A stretch of 58,602 nt of DNA from SAR202 cluster bacterium (GTDB lineage Bacteria; Chloroflexota; Dehalococcoidia; Lucifugimonadales; Lucifugimonadaceae), in the NCBI GenBank assembly GCA_009392285.1, contig VFGU01000005.1:1-58602 (forward strand), written 5' to 3'. Within the stretch, counting starts at the first letter, position 1. Each line of letters starts with the position of its first letter. Below, in pieces: positions 35,481 through 41,355 of this stretch. The notes beneath the pieces are model-generated. The model had not been told where the DNA came from and ran no database searches. It was given only the letters and a program-made list of their open reading frames with translations. The translations under genes were made by a program, and so were the position numbers.

Positions 35481-36338
35481 ATGAGTAGAAATTTATTTTT
35501 TATATTTTTAACTATAATCTTAATGATAATTGGATGTTCTCAAAATAATTTAACCACCAATACATTTACTTCCTCAGTAAATGGACAAGAAATCTATTTC
35601 AGAGAGTATGGTAATAACAATAATCCAGAAATATTGTTTATTCATGGTTTAATGGGTAGCTCAACTTCTTTCACTAATGTTGCGAAGGGCATCTCAACTG
35701 AATTTAATGTCACTTTAATAGACTTGCCAGGGCATGGAAATTCAGGTCTTGAAATTGATTTCAGCATAGACAAATTAACCGAATTAGTAGATGAATTTAT
35801 AAATAAAAAGTATACAAAACCAGTAACTTTAGTTGGGTATTCATTAGGCGGAACTATTGCAAATGCTATTTCAGAAAAATCCAATAACAAAGTAAATTCA
35901 TATGTATTAATAGATCCATGGTTTAGTAATAATACAAGTACTGATTCCTTGGCATTTAATTTTCTTTCTGTAATTGAAAAAAATGCAAAAAATTCTTGGG
36001 CAACAAATAATGACTCTATCAATTATGTTAAGAAAATGAATCCTGATTTATCAGAAGATCAGATTAATATTATATCAAATAATAGATTTGATTATGATAT
36101 AAAAATTTGGGATTCATCAGTACAAAAAGGCACCCTCATAAGAAATTTAAATGTTCCTTCAAAGTCACCGTTACTTTTAATAAAACCTGCTGCAAGTCTA
36201 ATTAAAGAATCACAAATCAAAAAATTATCCAAAAACTTCTTAAACCTAAAAGTACAAGCAATCCCAGATACAACGCACATGATTATATTCGAAGAGCCAG
36301 AATCTATTAGCAACCTTATAAAGGATTTTATAAAATGA
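35481..36338 (+). CDS. Alpha/beta-hydrolase lipoprotein
   Basis: 285 aa, predicted to be lipid-anchored: a signal peptide ends at MIIGC (Cys19). The mature part is an alpha/beta hydrolase with the oxyanion region FIHGLMGSST, the nucleophile elbow GYSLGGT, and a C-terminal catalytic His candidate in IPDTTHMIIF. It should act outside the membrane on an unknown ester or lactone. It overlaps the cupredoxin gene by 4 bp (ATGA), so the two are coupled. Confidence 0.85.
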   Translation: MSRNLFFIFLTIILMIIGCSQNNLTTNTFTSSVNGQEIYFREYGNNNNPEILFIHGLMGSSTSFTNVAKGISTEFNVTLIDLPGHGNSGLEIDFSIDKLTELVDEFINKKYTKPVTLVGYSLGGTIANAISEKSNNKVNSYVLIDPWFSNNTSTDSLAFNFLSVIEKNAKNSWATNNDSINYVKKMNPDLSEDQINIISNNRFDYDIKIWDSSVQKGTLIRNLNVPSKSPLLLIKPAASLIKESQIKKLSKNFLNLKVQAIPDTTHMIIFEEPESISNLIKDFIK

Positions 36339-36946
36339 AAAAAATTTTATTGGGCGTTTTAATAACAACTCTTCTTATTTCCTGTTCAAGCGATAATCAA
36401 AATTTAATATCTCAAGAATCTGATGAAATAATTCTTTTTAAACCCAAGCCTGAGCCAACATCGACACCCAAGCCTGAGCCAACATCGACACCCAAGCCTG
36501 AGCCAACATCGACACCCAAGCCTGAGCCAACATCGACACCCAAGCCTGAGCCAACATCGACACCCAAGCCTGAGCCAACAGAAATAGTTGTAAAGATTAT
36601 TGATTTTATGTTTGATCAGTCAGATATTTCTATTTATAAAAATTCAACCATAACCTGGATAAATTATGACTCTAGTTCACACACAGCATCATCCCTTGAA
36701 AATAAATTTGATTCCGGATACTTAAATAATAACCAACATTATTCATTTAAATTCCTTGATGCTGGTATATATACATATAGATGCAATTTGCACCCGAGCA
36801 TGAGAGGAGAAATAAGAGTGCTAACTAAAGACGGAAAACTTATCGACCCTACACCTGCACCCAGACCAACGTCTACCCCTAATCCAAACAGAAGTAAAAA
36901 TGATCAAAATATCAGCCCACCTCAATCATCAGAAAGTTATTATTAG
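36335..36946 (+). CDS. Cupredoxin-like lipoprotein on a proline-rich repeat stalk
   Basis: 203-aa predicted lipoprotein (Cys17 in LLISC). Residues about 36-82 are a PKPEPTST repeat stalk, encoded by a perfect 24-bp tandem repeat. Residues about 83-165 form a plastocyanin-like domain with all four type 1 copper ligands: His116 (SSHTAS), then Cys150, His153 and Met156 in YRCNLHPSMRG. A second Pro/Thr-rich tail follows. It may carry electrons at the outer face of the membrane. The stop TTAG is shared with the convergent photolyase gene. Confidence 0.88.
   Translation: MKKILLGVLITTLLISCSSDNQNLISQESDEIILFKPKPEPTSTPKPEPTSTPKPEPTSTPKPEPTSTPKPEPTSTPKPEPTEIVVKIIDFMFDQSDISIYKNSTITWINYDSSSHTASSLENKFDSGYLNNNQHYSFKFLDAGIYTYRCNLHPSMRGEIRVLTKDGKLIDPTPAPRPTSTPNPNRSKNDQNISPPQSSESYY
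36443..36580 (+). repeat. 24-bp tandem repeat, 5.75 perfect copies, coding
   Basis: Five identical 24-bp units (first begins CCCAAGCCTGAGCCAACA) at 36443, 36467, 36491, 36515 and 36539, plus an 18-bp partial unit at 36563. All stay in frame and encode PKPEPTST. Identity at every synonymous position indicates recent expansion or homogenisation, so the copy number probably varies between strains. Confidence 0.97.
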
Positions 36947-38283
36947 TTTTTTAAAGAGTTAAATATGTGGAGGGCTTTTTTTCGCGAATCCTCGTGAGAT
37001 ACAATTGGATCAGGATACTGATTAATTGCTTTATATTTTGAAGGATCATGGATAAATTTTGTTTCCATATCGCTTAACTCAGACACCCATTTTCTGATAT
37101 AAGTCCCATCTGGATCAAATTTTTCTCCTTGAGTAATTGGGTTAAAAATTCTGAAATAAGGAGCTGCATCTACACCAGAGCCAGCAGTCCATTGCCAGCC
37201 ACCAACGTTAGAAGCAGTATCGGCATCTACCAAATTTTCCATAAACCATTTTTCACCTTCCCTCCAATTTATAAAGAGATCCTTAGTCAAGAAAGAAGCA
37301 ACAATCATTCTTCCTCTATTGTGCATCCATCCAATATCTAATAACTGCCTCATGCATGCGTCTACGCAACTAAAACCAGTCAAACCTTGTTTCCAACTAT
37401 TTAGGTGATCTTCATTTTCTTCCCAAGGATAATAGGATAATTTGTTATTGAATGAAGAATGAATTATTTTTGGAAAATGAAACATAATATAGGCATTAAA
37501 TTCACGCCATAGCAACTCATTTATCCAAGATTTGACACCAGGATTATTGAGACCAAAATTTTCAGCTAAAATATAGGATCTTTTGATATCAACAATACCT
37601 GAATTAAAGTAAGCAGAAAGCATTGAAGTTCCATCTAAATCTAATCTGTTGCGCAGTTTGTTGTAACTTAAGAGATTTTTTTCAATATAATTAGATAACC
37701 TTTTATTTCCGAATAGTTTACTGGCCTTAAATGGTGTGTTGTTTGGGGGAGGGGAAAAATCATTCACTTCATCAATAACTAAAAAGTTTGACTTAGTTGG
37801 TGTGATTTCATGTTGAATATCGAATTCATTTCTAAACCAAGCTCTTGAAAAACTTGAGAATGTTAAATATGGGGTCCCGTCATCTTTCAATGTTTTGTTT
37901 AGGTCAGATAAGTAAGACGTATTTAAGAGTTTTACTTCAAATTTTTTAGAAATATTTTTAATAAATTCTCTATGTCCTGGATCTACATCAAATTGAGTGT
38001 ATATAGAACATACACTATATTTTGATTTTAAATGATCTAATACTGCTTCAGAGTCACCTAATTTTATTAAAATTTGACCATTCAAATTATCTAACTCTTT
38101 GGATAGATTGTTTAATGCCTCACGGTAAAATGATGCAATTTTAGAATCAGAAGAAGATCTTCTAAGTTTTTCGTCCCAAACAAAAACTGGCAAAACTGAA
38201 TCGCAATCATTTAATGCTTGCACAAGAATATTATTTTCGATTCTAAGATCTTTATTTATTAACCAAATTCCAATTTTACTCAT
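36943..38283 (-). CDS. phrB: Deoxyribodipyrimidine photolyase
   Basis: Blue-light-dependent repair of UV cyclobutane pyrimidine dimers using FAD. The N-terminal antenna domain opens IGIWLINKDLRIENNILVQA. The C-terminal FAD domain has WINELLWREFNAYI, MRQLLDIGWMHNRGRMIVAS, and the flavin-binding WQWTAGSGVDAAPYFRIFNP near residues 360-380. The 446-aa length fits class I CPD photolyase. It lies beside a UV-dimer-glycosylase-like gene and a B12-type light regulator. Confidence 0.93.
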   Translation of the reverse strand: MSKIGIWLINKDLRIENNILVQALNDCDSVLPVFVWDEKLRRSSSDSKIASFYREALNNLSKELDNLNGQILIKLGDSEAVLDHLKSKYSVCSIYTQFDVDPGHREFIKNISKKFEVKLLNTSYLSDLNKTLKDDGTPYLTFSSFSRAWFRNEFDIQHEITPTKSNFLVIDEVNDFSPPPNNTPFKASKLFGNKRLSNYIEKNLLSYNKLRNRLDLDGTSMLSAYFNSGIVDIKRSYILAENFGLNNPGVKSWINELLWREFNAYIMFHFPKIIHSSFNNKLSYYPWEENEDHLNSWKQGLTGFSCVDACMRQLLDIGWMHNRGRMIVASFLTKDLFINWREGEKWFMENLVDADTASNVGGWQWTAGSGVDAAPYFRIFNPITQGEKFDPDGTYIRKWVSELSDMETKFIHDPSKYKAINQYPDPIVSHEDSRKKALHIFNSLKN

Positions 38284-38359
38284 TTTTTATTTATGTTGAC
38301 TATAATCAATATTAGTGATAACTTTATCTTAAATCAATTTTATTAGAAAGGCAATTATT
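38284..38359. promoter_or_regulatory. Divergent promoter region of photolyase and zinc-ribbon genes
   Basis: On the plus strand TTGACT (38296-38301), a 17-bp spacer, and TAACTT (38319-38324) resemble a sigma-70 promoter. A TATAAT at 38302-38307 is an alternative -10. The 14-bp near-palindrome TTGACTATAATCAA (38296-38309, 12 of 14 symmetric) sits between the two genes. Its core TATAATCAA also occurs at the promoter of the B12-HTH regulator, read from the minus strand at 40009-40001. It is a candidate operator. Confidence 0.4.
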
Positions 38360-38578
38360 ATGATTATAGTAAACAGTTGCCCTAAATGTAAGGGCACATT
38401 AATAGTAAATCAAACTATAGAAAATGAAGAAGAAATTAGATGTGTAACCTGTGGATTATCAACACCTACTACAGATAATTTTCACAAATTAACTGGAAGA
38501 GAAATAATGTTAATGCTAACGGAAAAATCTAACTTAATTAAAGAAAAAATTGAAGCAAAAAACTTTGCTATTAATTGA
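38360..38578 (+). CDS. Small zinc-ribbon protein
   Basis: 72 aa. Two CxxC knuckles, SCPKCKG and RCVTCGL, 22 residues apart, form a probable zinc ribbon. The C-terminal half is helical and charged (GREIMLMLTEKSNLIKEKIE). AAAGG precedes the ATG. It is 21 bp upstream of the UV-dimer-glycosylase-like gene and divergent from photolyase, so it may belong to the light/UV response, possibly as a DNA- or RNA-binding factor. I do not recognise a family. Confidence 0.72.
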   Translation: MIIVNSCPKCKGTLIVNQTIENEEEIRCVTCGLSTPTTDNFHKLTGREIMLMLTEKSNLIKEKIEAKNFAIN

Positions 38579-38599: not shown

Positions 38600-38995
38600 A
38601 TGCAAACTTTTATGCCATATGCTGATATAGAAAAATCTCTTAAGTGCTTAGATTACAAGAGATTAGGAAAACAACGTGTAGAAGCAATGCAAACATACAA
38701 TCAAGTTACAAAGGGTAAAGGTGGCTATCCTCATCATCCAGTTAACAAATTATGGGAAAATTATCCTGATTCTTTAGCTCTATATCATAACTTGTGCATA
38801 AATGAGTGGATTTTCCGAGGCTACAAAAATACTATGGAATTGTTACCAATTCCTAGCAAAATTGAATTACCCAATTGGTTCGGCAACGAAGAGTTGCACT
38901 CATCACATAGGTCTAACTTGTTACGCAAAGATGAAGATTTTTATCGTAAGTATGGCTGGCTAGAGCCAACTGATTTAGACTACGTTTGGTTGTGA
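38600..38995 (+). CDS. Pyrimidine-dimer DNA glycosylase-like protein (MSMEG_6728 family)
   Basis: 131 aa, full-length for a family annotated as similar to T4 endonuclease V, a UV-dimer glycosylase/AP lyase. Conserved landmarks are MQTFMPYADIEKSLKCLDYK at the N-terminus, RLGKQRVEAMQ, YPHHPVNKLWENYP, NEWIFRGY, LHSSHRSNLLRKDEDFYRK and a YVWL end. SD GAGGA precedes the ATG. Placement between photolyase and a putative light regulator fits a UV-repair role. The activity of this family is inferred from annotation, not proven here. Confidence 0.85.
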   Translation: MQTFMPYADIEKSLKCLDYKRLGKQRVEAMQTYNQVTKGKGGYPHHPVNKLWENYPDSLALYHNLCINEWIFRGYKNTMELLPIPSKIELPNWFGNEELHSSHRSNLLRKDEDFYRKYGWLEPTDLDYVWL

Positions 38996-39009: not shown

Positions 39010-39963
39010 TTAATTCATTAATTCATTGATTGATATATTTAATGCGTCTGAAATTTTATGTAAGGCGCTTATGCTTAAATTCCTTTTTCCATTTTCTACT
39101 GAACTCAAAAATGCTCTGTCCATAGATGACATGTTTGCTAATTCTGTTTGACTAAGTCCTAGATTTGTCCTCACATTTTTAATTTTTATGCCTATGCCTT
39201 CTAAGGTTTGATCGAGATTAATTTTCGCATTTGCATGATGAAATCCTGTTAAAAATTTGGAACATTTATTTGATTCAAAAAATTCAGATGTACAACATAC
39301 AAAGTCGGGTGAAGATTTAATTTGGTAATTAATATTTTTAATTTGAAAATTTAAGACTTTAGGTTCATCATTTTTTTCATAGTCTGTCGTTCTATCAATA
39401 ATTGATCTGTTAATAGCAGGTCCTCCCCATATGATCTTTGGAACTTTTCCTTCTGATTGCAATGACTGAGTTATTTCATCACATTCTTCCAAAGATGAAT
39501 CCATAGTTACTGAAATAGCTACTAAATCGGGCAACCTTTCTTGAATGAATTTTTTTAGATCAAATAATGGAACTTGATTAGTAATAAAATCTACTTTCCA
39601 GCCATCCATTAATAAAAAGTCAGCAAACATTCTAGCTCCAGTCGAATGAGAATCTGATTTTGGTGTTGTGACTACTACTAATGGAGAATTATCTTTAGGT
39701 ATATAACTTTGCCTAAGCCTTGCCATCAACTCTAAAGTAATGCTAGAAGCTCTATTTTCATGAGATATAGATATTTCTCCGTTATGCCACATCTCTCCAA
39801 TTTCTCTTAAAGATTCAGTAAAAATCTTTTTATATAAAAATTTTTCACCCCATCCTTCGGCTAAGATATAAGAAACACAGGCAAATGCATCTTGCAAATT
39901 TCCATCAAGCAATGAAGAAGTATACCTATCTTTAATATTAATTATTGATCTGTTGTTTTTCAA
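39010..39963 (-). CDS. B12-binding photosensor-like regulator with C-terminal Xre HTH
   Basis: 317 aa with an unusual domain order. Residues about 10-90 are a helical cap of the CarH/methionine-synthase type. MWHNGEISISHEN holds Trp59, His60 and Glu69, matching the CarH W-x9-E pattern, but Asn70 replaces the usual His. Residues about 94-190 are the B12 domain with DSHSTG (Asp104, His106, Gly109), SVTMDSS and IIWGGP. Residues about 255-315 are an HTH_3 domain (LGLSQTELANMSSMDRAFLS, then VENGKRN). CarH/LitR proteins instead carry an N-terminal MerR domain. The start is TTG. Light-dependent control of the adjacent phr block is inference. Confidence 0.85.
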   Translation of the reverse strand: MKNNRSIINIKDRYTSSLLDGNLQDAFACVSYILAEGWGEKFLYKKIFTESLREIGEMWHNGEISISHENRASSITLELMARLRQSYIPKDNSPLVVVTTPKSDSHSTGARMFADFLLMDGWKVDFITNQVPLFDLKKFIQERLPDLVAISVTMDSSLEECDEITQSLQSEGKVPKIIWGGPAINRSIIDRTTDYEKNDEPKVLNFQIKNINYQIKSSPDFVCCTSEFFESNKCSKFLTGFHHANAKINLDQTLEGIGIKIKNVRTNLGLSQTELANMSSMDRAFLSSVENGKRNLSISALHKISDALNISINELMN

Positions 39964-40003
39964 AATGTGGAATAAATTAATCTATTAATATGATGTATTG
40001 TTG

Positions 40004-40009
40004 ATTATA
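40004..40009 (-). promoter_or_regulatory. -10 element upstream of the B12-HTH regulator
   Basis: TATAAT on the minus strand, followed by CAACAATA and a leader of about 35 bases to the TTG start. No convincing -35 is seen, as expected if an activator is needed. The TATAATCAA core is also found between photolyase and the zinc-ribbon gene. Confidence 0.4.
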
Positions 40010-40030
40010 CTACACAAATTGATAATTATA

Positions 40031-40861
40031 TTAATCTAAAATATTCCCACCATTTACATTCAATGCTTGGCCTGTGATTTGGCTGGCATCTTCAGAAGCA
40101 AGAAAGGCAATTGCATTTCCAATATCTCTAGGCTCTTGAGGCCTACCTAAAGGAAAATTAGATTTTATCTGATCGACAAAAATATCATAAGGGTCCATAT
40201 CAGCAAAATCTGGATTTAGCGCTTTATGATTCTCTGCAATTTTTTGCCAAAATGAAGTCCATAGCCTACCAGGGCATACTGTATTTACATTTATATTAAA
40301 TCTGCCTAATTCGATTGCAAGCGCATGAGTAAATTGAATTGCTGCTGCTTTAGAAACTAAGTAAGGGTTTAAAACATTACCTCTGCCCTTATCTCCTACT
40401 CCTCTTGGCTTACGGCCTCCTTGAGATGAAACAATCACTATTTTGCCACTCTCCCTTTCTATCATATGACCTTTTACAGAATCAGTAGTATTTACTAACC
40501 CCTTCACATTAACCTTATATGTAATATCCCAATCTTCATCGTTATAATCCTTACGATCAGAGAAGCCCGAAGAGCCTATTGCGCCTGCATTAGGAACACA
40601 TACATCAATCTTGCCAAATTCATTTATTGTTCTTTTGACAAATTCTTCAATATCTTCTTTTACAGTTACATCAACTTTGTCAGTTATAATTTCTGTACCT
40701 TTTGAAGAAAATTCAGTTTCTAATCTTTCTAGTTCTTCGCTATCAAGGTCAGAGATCGCAAGTTTAGCACCTCTCTCTGAAAATACTTCAGCTGTGCCTT
40801 TACCTATCCCTCTTACTCCTCCGGTTATAAATACAACTTTATCTCTAAATTGATCATTCAT
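40031..40861 (-). CDS. Classical short-chain dehydrogenase/reductase
   Basis: 276-aa Rossmann oxidoreductase with TGGVRGIGKGTAEVF (TGxxxGIG), NAGAIG, the catalytic Ser in VIVSSQGG, YLVSKAA (YxxxK), and a C-terminal LNVNGGNILD. An insert around GRKPRGVGDKGRGNVLNP resembles mycofactocin-linked SDRs; no mycofactocin genes are visible. The substrate is unknown. The gene begins 2 bp after the SRPBCC gene, forming a unit ahead of the B12-HTH regulator. Confidence 0.87.
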   Translation of the reverse strand: MNDQFRDKVVFITGGVRGIGKGTAEVFSERGAKLAISDLDSEELERLETEFSSKGTEIITDKVDVTVKEDIEEFVKRTINEFGKIDVCVPNAGAIGSSGFSDRKDYNDEDWDITYKVNVKGLVNTTDSVKGHMIERESGKIVIVSSQGGRKPRGVGDKGRGNVLNPYLVSKAAAIQFTHALAIELGRFNINVNTVCPGRLWTSFWQKIAENHKALNPDFADMDPYDIFVDQIKSNFPLGRPQEPRDIGNAIAFLASEDASQITGQALNVNGGNILD

Positions 40862-40863
40862 TA

Positions 40864-41355
40864 TTACTCCAAACTACTAAAAAACTTATTCAATGCTCTT
40901 TTCCTATAGTTAAATATATTCAATAAATCTCTTTTAACAAATAAATTATGTATAAGTGCCCCACCTGGAACAATATATTCAACCTTATCAGTAATCTTAG
41001 TCTTATCACCTAAACTTGAAAACAAATGAACATGGTGCCATTTAATAAAAGGACCGCTTAACTGAATATCCACAAATTTATTGGGAGGGCTCCATTCTTT
41101 GATGAGGCTTTTCCATTTAACAGGAATTCCATGAATTTTTAATCTATATTGAAAAATAGTAGATTCATTAATTGAAGAAGATTGAGACAAAATATTAAAA
41201 TCTAGAAAAGGAGGAGTAATCAGATTTAAATTTTTTGCTTCAGAATAAAAATTGAAAACTTCTTTTATAGAGCATGAGATATACTGTTCAGCAAATAATT
41301 CAAATCTCCATAATCCTATTCTTTTTATAGATATGTCATTATTTATAGAATCCAT
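40864..41355 (-). CDS. SRPBCC-domain protein of the photolyase-associated type
   Basis: 163-aa START/SRPBCC helix-grip protein. Pattern: FELFAEQYISCSIKEVFNFY, SEAKNLNLITPPFLDF, YRLKIHGIPVKWKSLIKEW, FVDIQLSGPFIKWHHVHLFS, VEYIVPGGALIHNLFVKRDL, and IFNYRKRALNKFF. This subgroup is often annotated as a cell-division-inhibitor-like protein and is frequently found near photolyase genes or fused to TIGR01777 epimerases. It heads the minus-strand unit with the SDR. The ligand is unknown. Confidence 0.82.
   Translation of the reverse strand: MDSINNDISIKRIGLWRFELFAEQYISCSIKEVFNFYSEAKNLNLITPPFLDFNILSQSSSINESTIFQYRLKIHGIPVKWKSLIKEWSPPNKFVDIQLSGPFIKWHHVHLFSSLGDKTKITDKVEYIVPGGALIHNLFVKRDLLNIFNYRKRALNKFFSSLE

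Follow-up and report, generated by a model that had tools for sequence, protein, structure and literature searches.

Among the described systems closest to the regulator analyzed here are the B12 photoreceptors CarH and LitR, in which a MerR domain stands at the N terminus, and in the CarH model AdoCbl holds the active oligomer together in the dark and light releases it (PMC10442372). According to the main text of the SignatureFinder paper (PMC11796333), B12 domains that respond to light are found joined to HTH and other outputs at either the N- or the C-terminal side, photocobilins carry a bilin-binding globin-like domain, to which AbDPcob adds a diguanylate cyclase, and CtMerR has an N-terminal MerR domain, unlike the C-terminal Xre domain described below. 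In that main text, no Xre fusion, operator or regulon is mentioned, and a literature search of partial coverage found no work joining a cobalamin-binding domain, Xre, and a photoreceptor. On the DNA-binding side, the closest described proteins are the C proteins of restriction-modification (R-M) systems (C.AhdI, C.BclI, and C.Esp1396I), which are stand-alone HTH dimers with no sensor, whereas the HTH found here is fused to a B12 sensor.

The window, i.e., the whole analyzed stretch of 58,602 nucleotides (G+C content of 33%), encodes a regulator of 317 amino acids with a TTG start codon (positions 39963 to 39010, minus strand), for which the architecture, predicted fold, conserved residues, predicted operator, and gene linkage were established by computation. 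A four-helix cap (residues 12 to 83, positions 39715 to 39930; Pfam B12-binding_2, E value of 4.3e-6; helices at residues 4 to 84 in the model) is followed by a Rossmann B12-binding domain with a structural match to CarH (residues 95 to 183, positions 39415 to 39681; Pfam B12-binding, 1.3e-13), a linker, and an HTH_3/Xre DNA-binding domain whose nearest relatives are R-M C proteins (residues 261 to 315, positions 39019 to 39183; Pfam HTH_3, 4.2e-13), all on the minus strand and all with matches exceeding the curated Pfam cutoffs. Pfam and 65 homologues of the same order thus bear out the initial annotation, which had placed the cap and B12 domains ahead of a C-terminal HTH_3/Xre domain. On the same strand, the cap holds Trp59 (39787-39789), His60 (39784-39786), Glu69 (39757-39759), and Asn70 (39754-39756), and the Rossmann domain holds the putative lower-ligand His106 (39646-39648); these residues and the Asp104-Ser105-His106 motif lie where they had been placed before. 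In the stretch leading from the B12 domain to the HTH (residues ∼184 to 245, window positions 39229-39414), the window clade has an insertion of roughly 25 to 35 residues, for which the model shows a beta hairpin with lower confidence. The regulator shares with CarH and LitR a cap and Rossmann B12 sensor with the Trp, the Glu, and the lower His, but differs in having Xre at the C terminus and no MerR domain. CarH was its best NCBIfam match (3.9e-17), with a score of 62.4 bits that lies below the CarH equivalog cutoff of 400 bits, which was passed by none of the proteins in 301 sampled Chloroflexota-like genomes, MerR types included.

The best solved structures by sequence were Thermus thermophilus CarH and photocobilins, and structural comparison pointed in the same direction. 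An AlphaFold2 model built from the family alignment (mean pLDDT of 85.8, pTM of 0.71) gave 50 best Foldseek hits that were all B12 photoreceptors (photocobilins, CtMerR, and CarH), the CarH and CtMerR matches falling mostly at 2.1 to 2.9 Å over ∼180 columns; the kind of match that the initial annotation had held to count against a photosensor, to a methyltransferase corrinoid subunit lacking the adenosyl-side cap, did not appear among them. The nearest structural matches of the sensor were the photocobilins (SasPcob and AbDPcob) and CtMerR, in keeping with a B12 sensor that serves as a module for diverse outputs. The VIA-align Z scores were 23.5 for photocobilin, 20.9 for CtMerR, 20.5 for T. 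thermophilus CarH, 19.8 for AerR, and 19.3 for MetH, and the predicted fold alone does not strongly separate a photoreceptor from MetH. The capping Trp and Glu do separate them, because the W-x9-E part of the motif is absent in MetH (PMC8156234); with Trp59 and Glu69 invariant in the family, the regulator stands apart from the corrinoid methyltransferase subunits (MtaC/MtbC and MetH), and no corrinoid methyltransferase gene was found among the scanned neighbours of the window regulator.

A search for other proteins with the cap-B12-HTH_3 order, as had been suggested earlier, returned 65 full-length homologues from Chloroflexota (SAR202 and other Dehalococcoidia) and uncultured deltaproteobacteria, which formed the family alignment (52 after 95% reduction). 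The full cap-B12-Xre architecture was present in 18 of the 60 nearest genomes, the window's own included, and 400 genomes sampled from the phylum added members in two further families. Moreover, a contig scan of named genomes, run with a 6-sequence B12-domain alignment (a 17-sequence alignment being too divergent), yielded 36 full-length members from Dehalococcoidia/SAR202, other Chloroflexi, and uncultured deltaproteobacteria, while a single-protein query found no relatives in viral contigs. Among the deltaproteobacterial members L068, L072-L076, L078, and L079, the regulator lies in several cases beside a J-domain-like gene. Gly56, Trp59, Glu69, His106, and Pro132 were invariant in all 65 aligned members, the Glu-His motif was found in 62 and His60 in 52 of them, and the published light signature (GxxW, EH, GxxH, and GxxxP, as given in the main text of PMC11796333) was complete in 40 of the 52 nonredundant members.

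In the B12-domain tree, the Xre-type (22 rows, support of 92/80), MerR-type (9 rows, 100/99), and other architectures (13 rows, 92/66) each formed one side of a branch, the tree being unrooted and support for the Xre branch being moderate. Because the Xre and MerR types lie on distinct branches, the tree fits a single joining of the sensor to an Xre head, separate from the MerR joining, and it agrees with the "independently built" switch of the initial annotation.

The HTH was closest in sequence to C.BclI (1.6e-10), C.AhdI (5e-9), and C.Esp1396I variants (∼1e-7), and its model superposed on C.AhdI and C.BclI with an rmsd of 1.0 to 1.1 Å and a Z score of 14 (VIA-align). Arg283 and Arg294 of the window protein align with Arg35 and Arg46 of C.Esp1396I, and in most of the family the position equivalent to Arg46 is occupied by Gln. 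The gene is not a stand-alone HTH gene of an R-M locus: it is fused to a B12 sensor, and no restriction or DNA-methyltransferase gene was found among the scanned neighbours; what it shares with C proteins is a related Xre HTH and a C-box-like predicted operator around a central TATA.

This predicted operator emerged from the regions upstream of the regulators. By exact palindrome counting, ATGT-N12-ACAT occurred upstream of 11 of 41 distinct regulators, whereas no palindrome exceeded 7 in 20 shuffled sets, and the trained palindromic matrix reads TGTnKAnTATAnTMnACA. In a five-fold held-out test, 29 of the 41 upstream regions passed the 99% shuffle threshold; with the symmetry constraint dropped, a matrix trained from the same starting pattern stayed symmetric. 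Across the loci read, a predicted site was found at 36 of 50 regulators versus 20 of 683 other genes; strong sites were seen at photolyase, fasciclin-like, FolE, and SRPBCC genes, among others. The MerR-type loci (n = 21) contained no operator site (best score of 8.7 bits), and some of the deltaproteobacterial regulators tested had a weak or absent upstream operator. Promoter sequence could account in part for the TATA-centred motif. Fasciclin-like lipoprotein genes, recognized by eye, lie beside the regulator with operators in front at L066:9196-9813, L067:11013-12056, L069:11080-11655, and L088:8824-9822, those of L066 and L069 being preceded by two tandem operators with ∼48- to 54-bp spacing.

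Within the window, the simple pattern ATGTT-N10-AACAT, with two mismatches allowed, occurred in chance numbers only, which is why the full matrix was used together with the TATA-centred pattern. Predicted operator O1 (TGTTGATTATACTACACA, positions 39999 to 40016) lies in the regulator promoter and is the sole match with 0 mismatches in the 751-kb draft genome; predicted operator O2 (TGTTGACTATAATCAATA, positions 38294 to 38311) lies in the photolyase promoter and is the best of the palindromic near-matches in that draft, those matching on both strands. A weaker candidate, O3 (positions 38358 to 38375, 2 mismatches), stands at the start of the CxxC/pyrimidine-dimer glycosylase gene pair and overlaps the called start codon. 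C.Esp1396I recognizes GAC boxes around TATA with an outer TG, and its OR oligonucleotide is TGTGTGATTATAGTCAACA (PMC3758141); the layout resembles that of the family operator, with a central TATA in both. The minus strand of O2 contains TGATTATAGTCAACA, 15 consecutive bases of the C.Esp1396I operator (PMC3758141) that occur once in the draft, and the only copy with one mismatch is at O3, 67 bp from the exact one. Since this 15-mer was chosen after the match had been seen, its rarity is supporting and no clean test, while the draft-wide operator ranking is free of that weakness for the photolyase, the site of which was absent from training. Taken whole, C.Esp1396I OR and OL have low family-matrix scores of 2.2 and -3.2, respectively, and the likeness is one of layout and of the 15 bases shared with the photolyase promoter rather than of the full consensus. 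Sister genome G008 has predicted sites at the regulator and photolyase promoters, as does the window's own draft (G000), and in G051 a contig lacking the regulator holds a DICT-photolyase operon preceded by three strong sites and additional weaker ones; no operator was found in front of the unlinked photolyases of G014 and G006.

The genes around the regulator include the predicted targets. The predicted target photolyase (positions 36943 to 38283, minus strand; PF03441, 3e-80) is linked to the regulator, and between the two lie, on the plus strand, a small CxxC zinc-ribbon-like protein that is a recurrent regulator neighbour (38360 to 38578) and a predicted target similar to MSMEG_6728/pyrimidine dimer DNA glycosylase (38600 to 38995; PF03013, 1.9e-20; NF038085, 7.9e-38). 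An SDR oxidoreductase gene (40031 to 40861, minus strand) is directly upstream of the regulator in the same orientation, and beyond it lies a gene for an SRPBCC (polyketide-cyclase-like) protein (40864 to 41355, minus strand), which recurs near the regulator and has an operator in front of its L098 counterpart. Further CxxC zinc-ribbon-like proteins were seen at L097:597-803, L094:7652-7837, and L098:7282-7473, and a predicted operator often precedes such a gene. In L050, L054, L058, L082, L089, and L102, a divergent neighbour that recurs encodes a small membrane protein (VGALNWGLVGLFKFDLVA) resembling DUF378 by eye, and a cupredoxin-like protein in the window (36335-36946) contains consecutive TPKPEP repeats close to its N terminus, a similar repeat-bearing gene adjoining the regulator locus in L097.

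Across 27 regulator-bearing genomes, 8 of 11 photolyases lay within ∼6 kb of the regulator, with 0.1 expected (P of ∼7e-15 naively and ∼8e-10 with genera collapsed), and this proximity was seen in five genera. In addition, a photolyase was present in 9 of 18 regulator-bearing versus 5 of 42 regulator-free near relatives (Fisher P of 0.003). The Thermus brockianus MerR-type locus, used as a control, likewise has a photolyase near its regulator. No photolyase was found in the regulator flanks of sponge-associated Chloroflexi or deltaproteobacteria, where the context differs and the role may differ too. Other neighbours were FAD oxidase, DUF1365, CMAS, SDR, SDR-DUF2867, FolE, DICT, and fasciclin-like genes, and these neighbour genes come close to the light-induced Pseudomonas LitR set, which includes phrB, SDR, FAD oxidoreductase, ufaM, and folE (PMC9758184). 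The draft genome also encodes a microbial rhodopsin (G000:C12:71925-72587, E value of 1.7e-48), and enrichment in phr as well as possession of proteorhodopsin has been reported for streamlined euphotic SAR202 (PMC11994032), both of which fit a sunlit life.

The reading that we prefer, at a probability of roughly 0.7, is that the regulator is a dark-state AdoCbl-dependent repressor released by light, which couples a CarH-type sensor to a C-protein-like Xre HTH and controls its own gene, the photolyase gene, and probably the glycosylase pair. Under this best reading, it would work like CarH yet stand outside the CarH family, and the functions under its control would be UV repair and photo-oxidative defence. 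We infer AdoCbl binding, photolysis, the change of oligomer, and the dark direction of repression, and by analogy with CarH we expect an active oligomer in the dark and its release in the light. In the dark, AdoCbl would bind base-off, with His106 below the cobalt and Trp59 and Glu69 capping the adenosyl group, and the bound sensor would be kept as an oligomer that presents pairs of HTH domains to the palindromic operator TG-N2-(G/T)AN-TATA-NT(C/A)-N2-CA. Repression is suggested because the predicted operator is centred on a TATA resembling a promoter -10 box, and binding there would silence the regulator's own gene, the photolyase gene, and probably the pyrimidine-dimer glycosylase pair. Visible light would then cleave the Co-C bond, upon which the oligomer would fall apart and the genes would be switched on.

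The most serious alternative, though an unlikely one, is that the family senses light but that in the three-species clade of the window (L001-L003) the pocket has changed too far for the protein still to do so via AdoCbl, a state comparable to that of B12-independent CarA or class II LitR; the protein would then be constitutive or work with a partner. The initial annotation had described the photosensor residues as largely kept, which holds for Trp59, His60, Glu69, and His106 but not for the glycines of GxxH (Ser103) and GxxxP (Thr128), and its Asn70 in place of the usual His proved to be restricted to this clade (3 of 65 members). Measured against the published signature, the window protein thus keeps GxxW and has EN, SxxH, and TxxxP for the rest; measured against the W-x9-EH cap motif of CarH and LitR, it has Trp59 and Glu69 with Asn70 for the His. 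All three clade members have Asn70, a non-Gly residue at 103, and Thr128, so that EH, GxxH, and GxxxP are altered together, which speaks for this alternative, while His106, Trp59, His60, Glu69, and Pro132 are kept, which argues against it. The change looks recent, since L004 of the same genus carries the full residue set, including Glu-His. Cofactor supply bears on the same question: an adenosyltransferase was found in 15 of the 20 regulator-bearing genomes checked, and none was found in the window's own draft, which is 55.6% complete, yet the sisters G008 and G009 both carry one. The predicted operators at the regulator and the photolyase in both G000 and G008 likewise speak against this alternative.

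It is improbable, in our view, that the regulator senses cobalamin supply rather than light, with its genes switching when AdoCbl is scarce. Any AdoCbl-dependent repressor would be expected to respond to the AdoCbl level as well, but the predicted targets and neighbours are genes of DNA photorepair and photo-oxidative defence, the photolyase is linked to the regulator, and no B12 biosynthesis or transport genes were recognized next to the window regulator or as recurrent neighbours. Genomic context and operator evidence thus favour light over plain cobalamin sensing. Least probable of all, and ranked low accordingly, is a corrinoid or redox sensor akin to methyltransferase corrinoid proteins that uses methyl- or aquo-cobalamin, or heme as in SCHIC, a reading in line with weaker matches to MtbC/MtgC, MetH, and AppA SCHIC but opposed by the invariant capping Trp-x9-Glu that MetH lacks (PMC8156234) and by photoreceptors outranking methyltransferase domains in both sequence and fold.

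Beyond the light-released repressor itself, we lean slightly towards a broader reading, in which these proteins form a second class of B12 photoreceptor repressors, assembled apart from the MerR type from the light sensor and a restriction-controller-like HTH, and acting on C-box-like operators as a photodamage switch in sunlit SAR202 and other Chloroflexota, with the retuned adenosyl pocket of the window clade still responsive to light. A natural clade that has passed from EH to EN beside EH relatives provides a ready-made experiment on the role of the capping His. If true, the B12 light sensor would have been coupled to a DNA-binding head unrelated to it, and the outcome would be a repressor under the control of light whose operator is short and defined and which could be tested and reused; there would also be a testable answer to how euphotic SAR202 might turn on the repair of sunlight damage.
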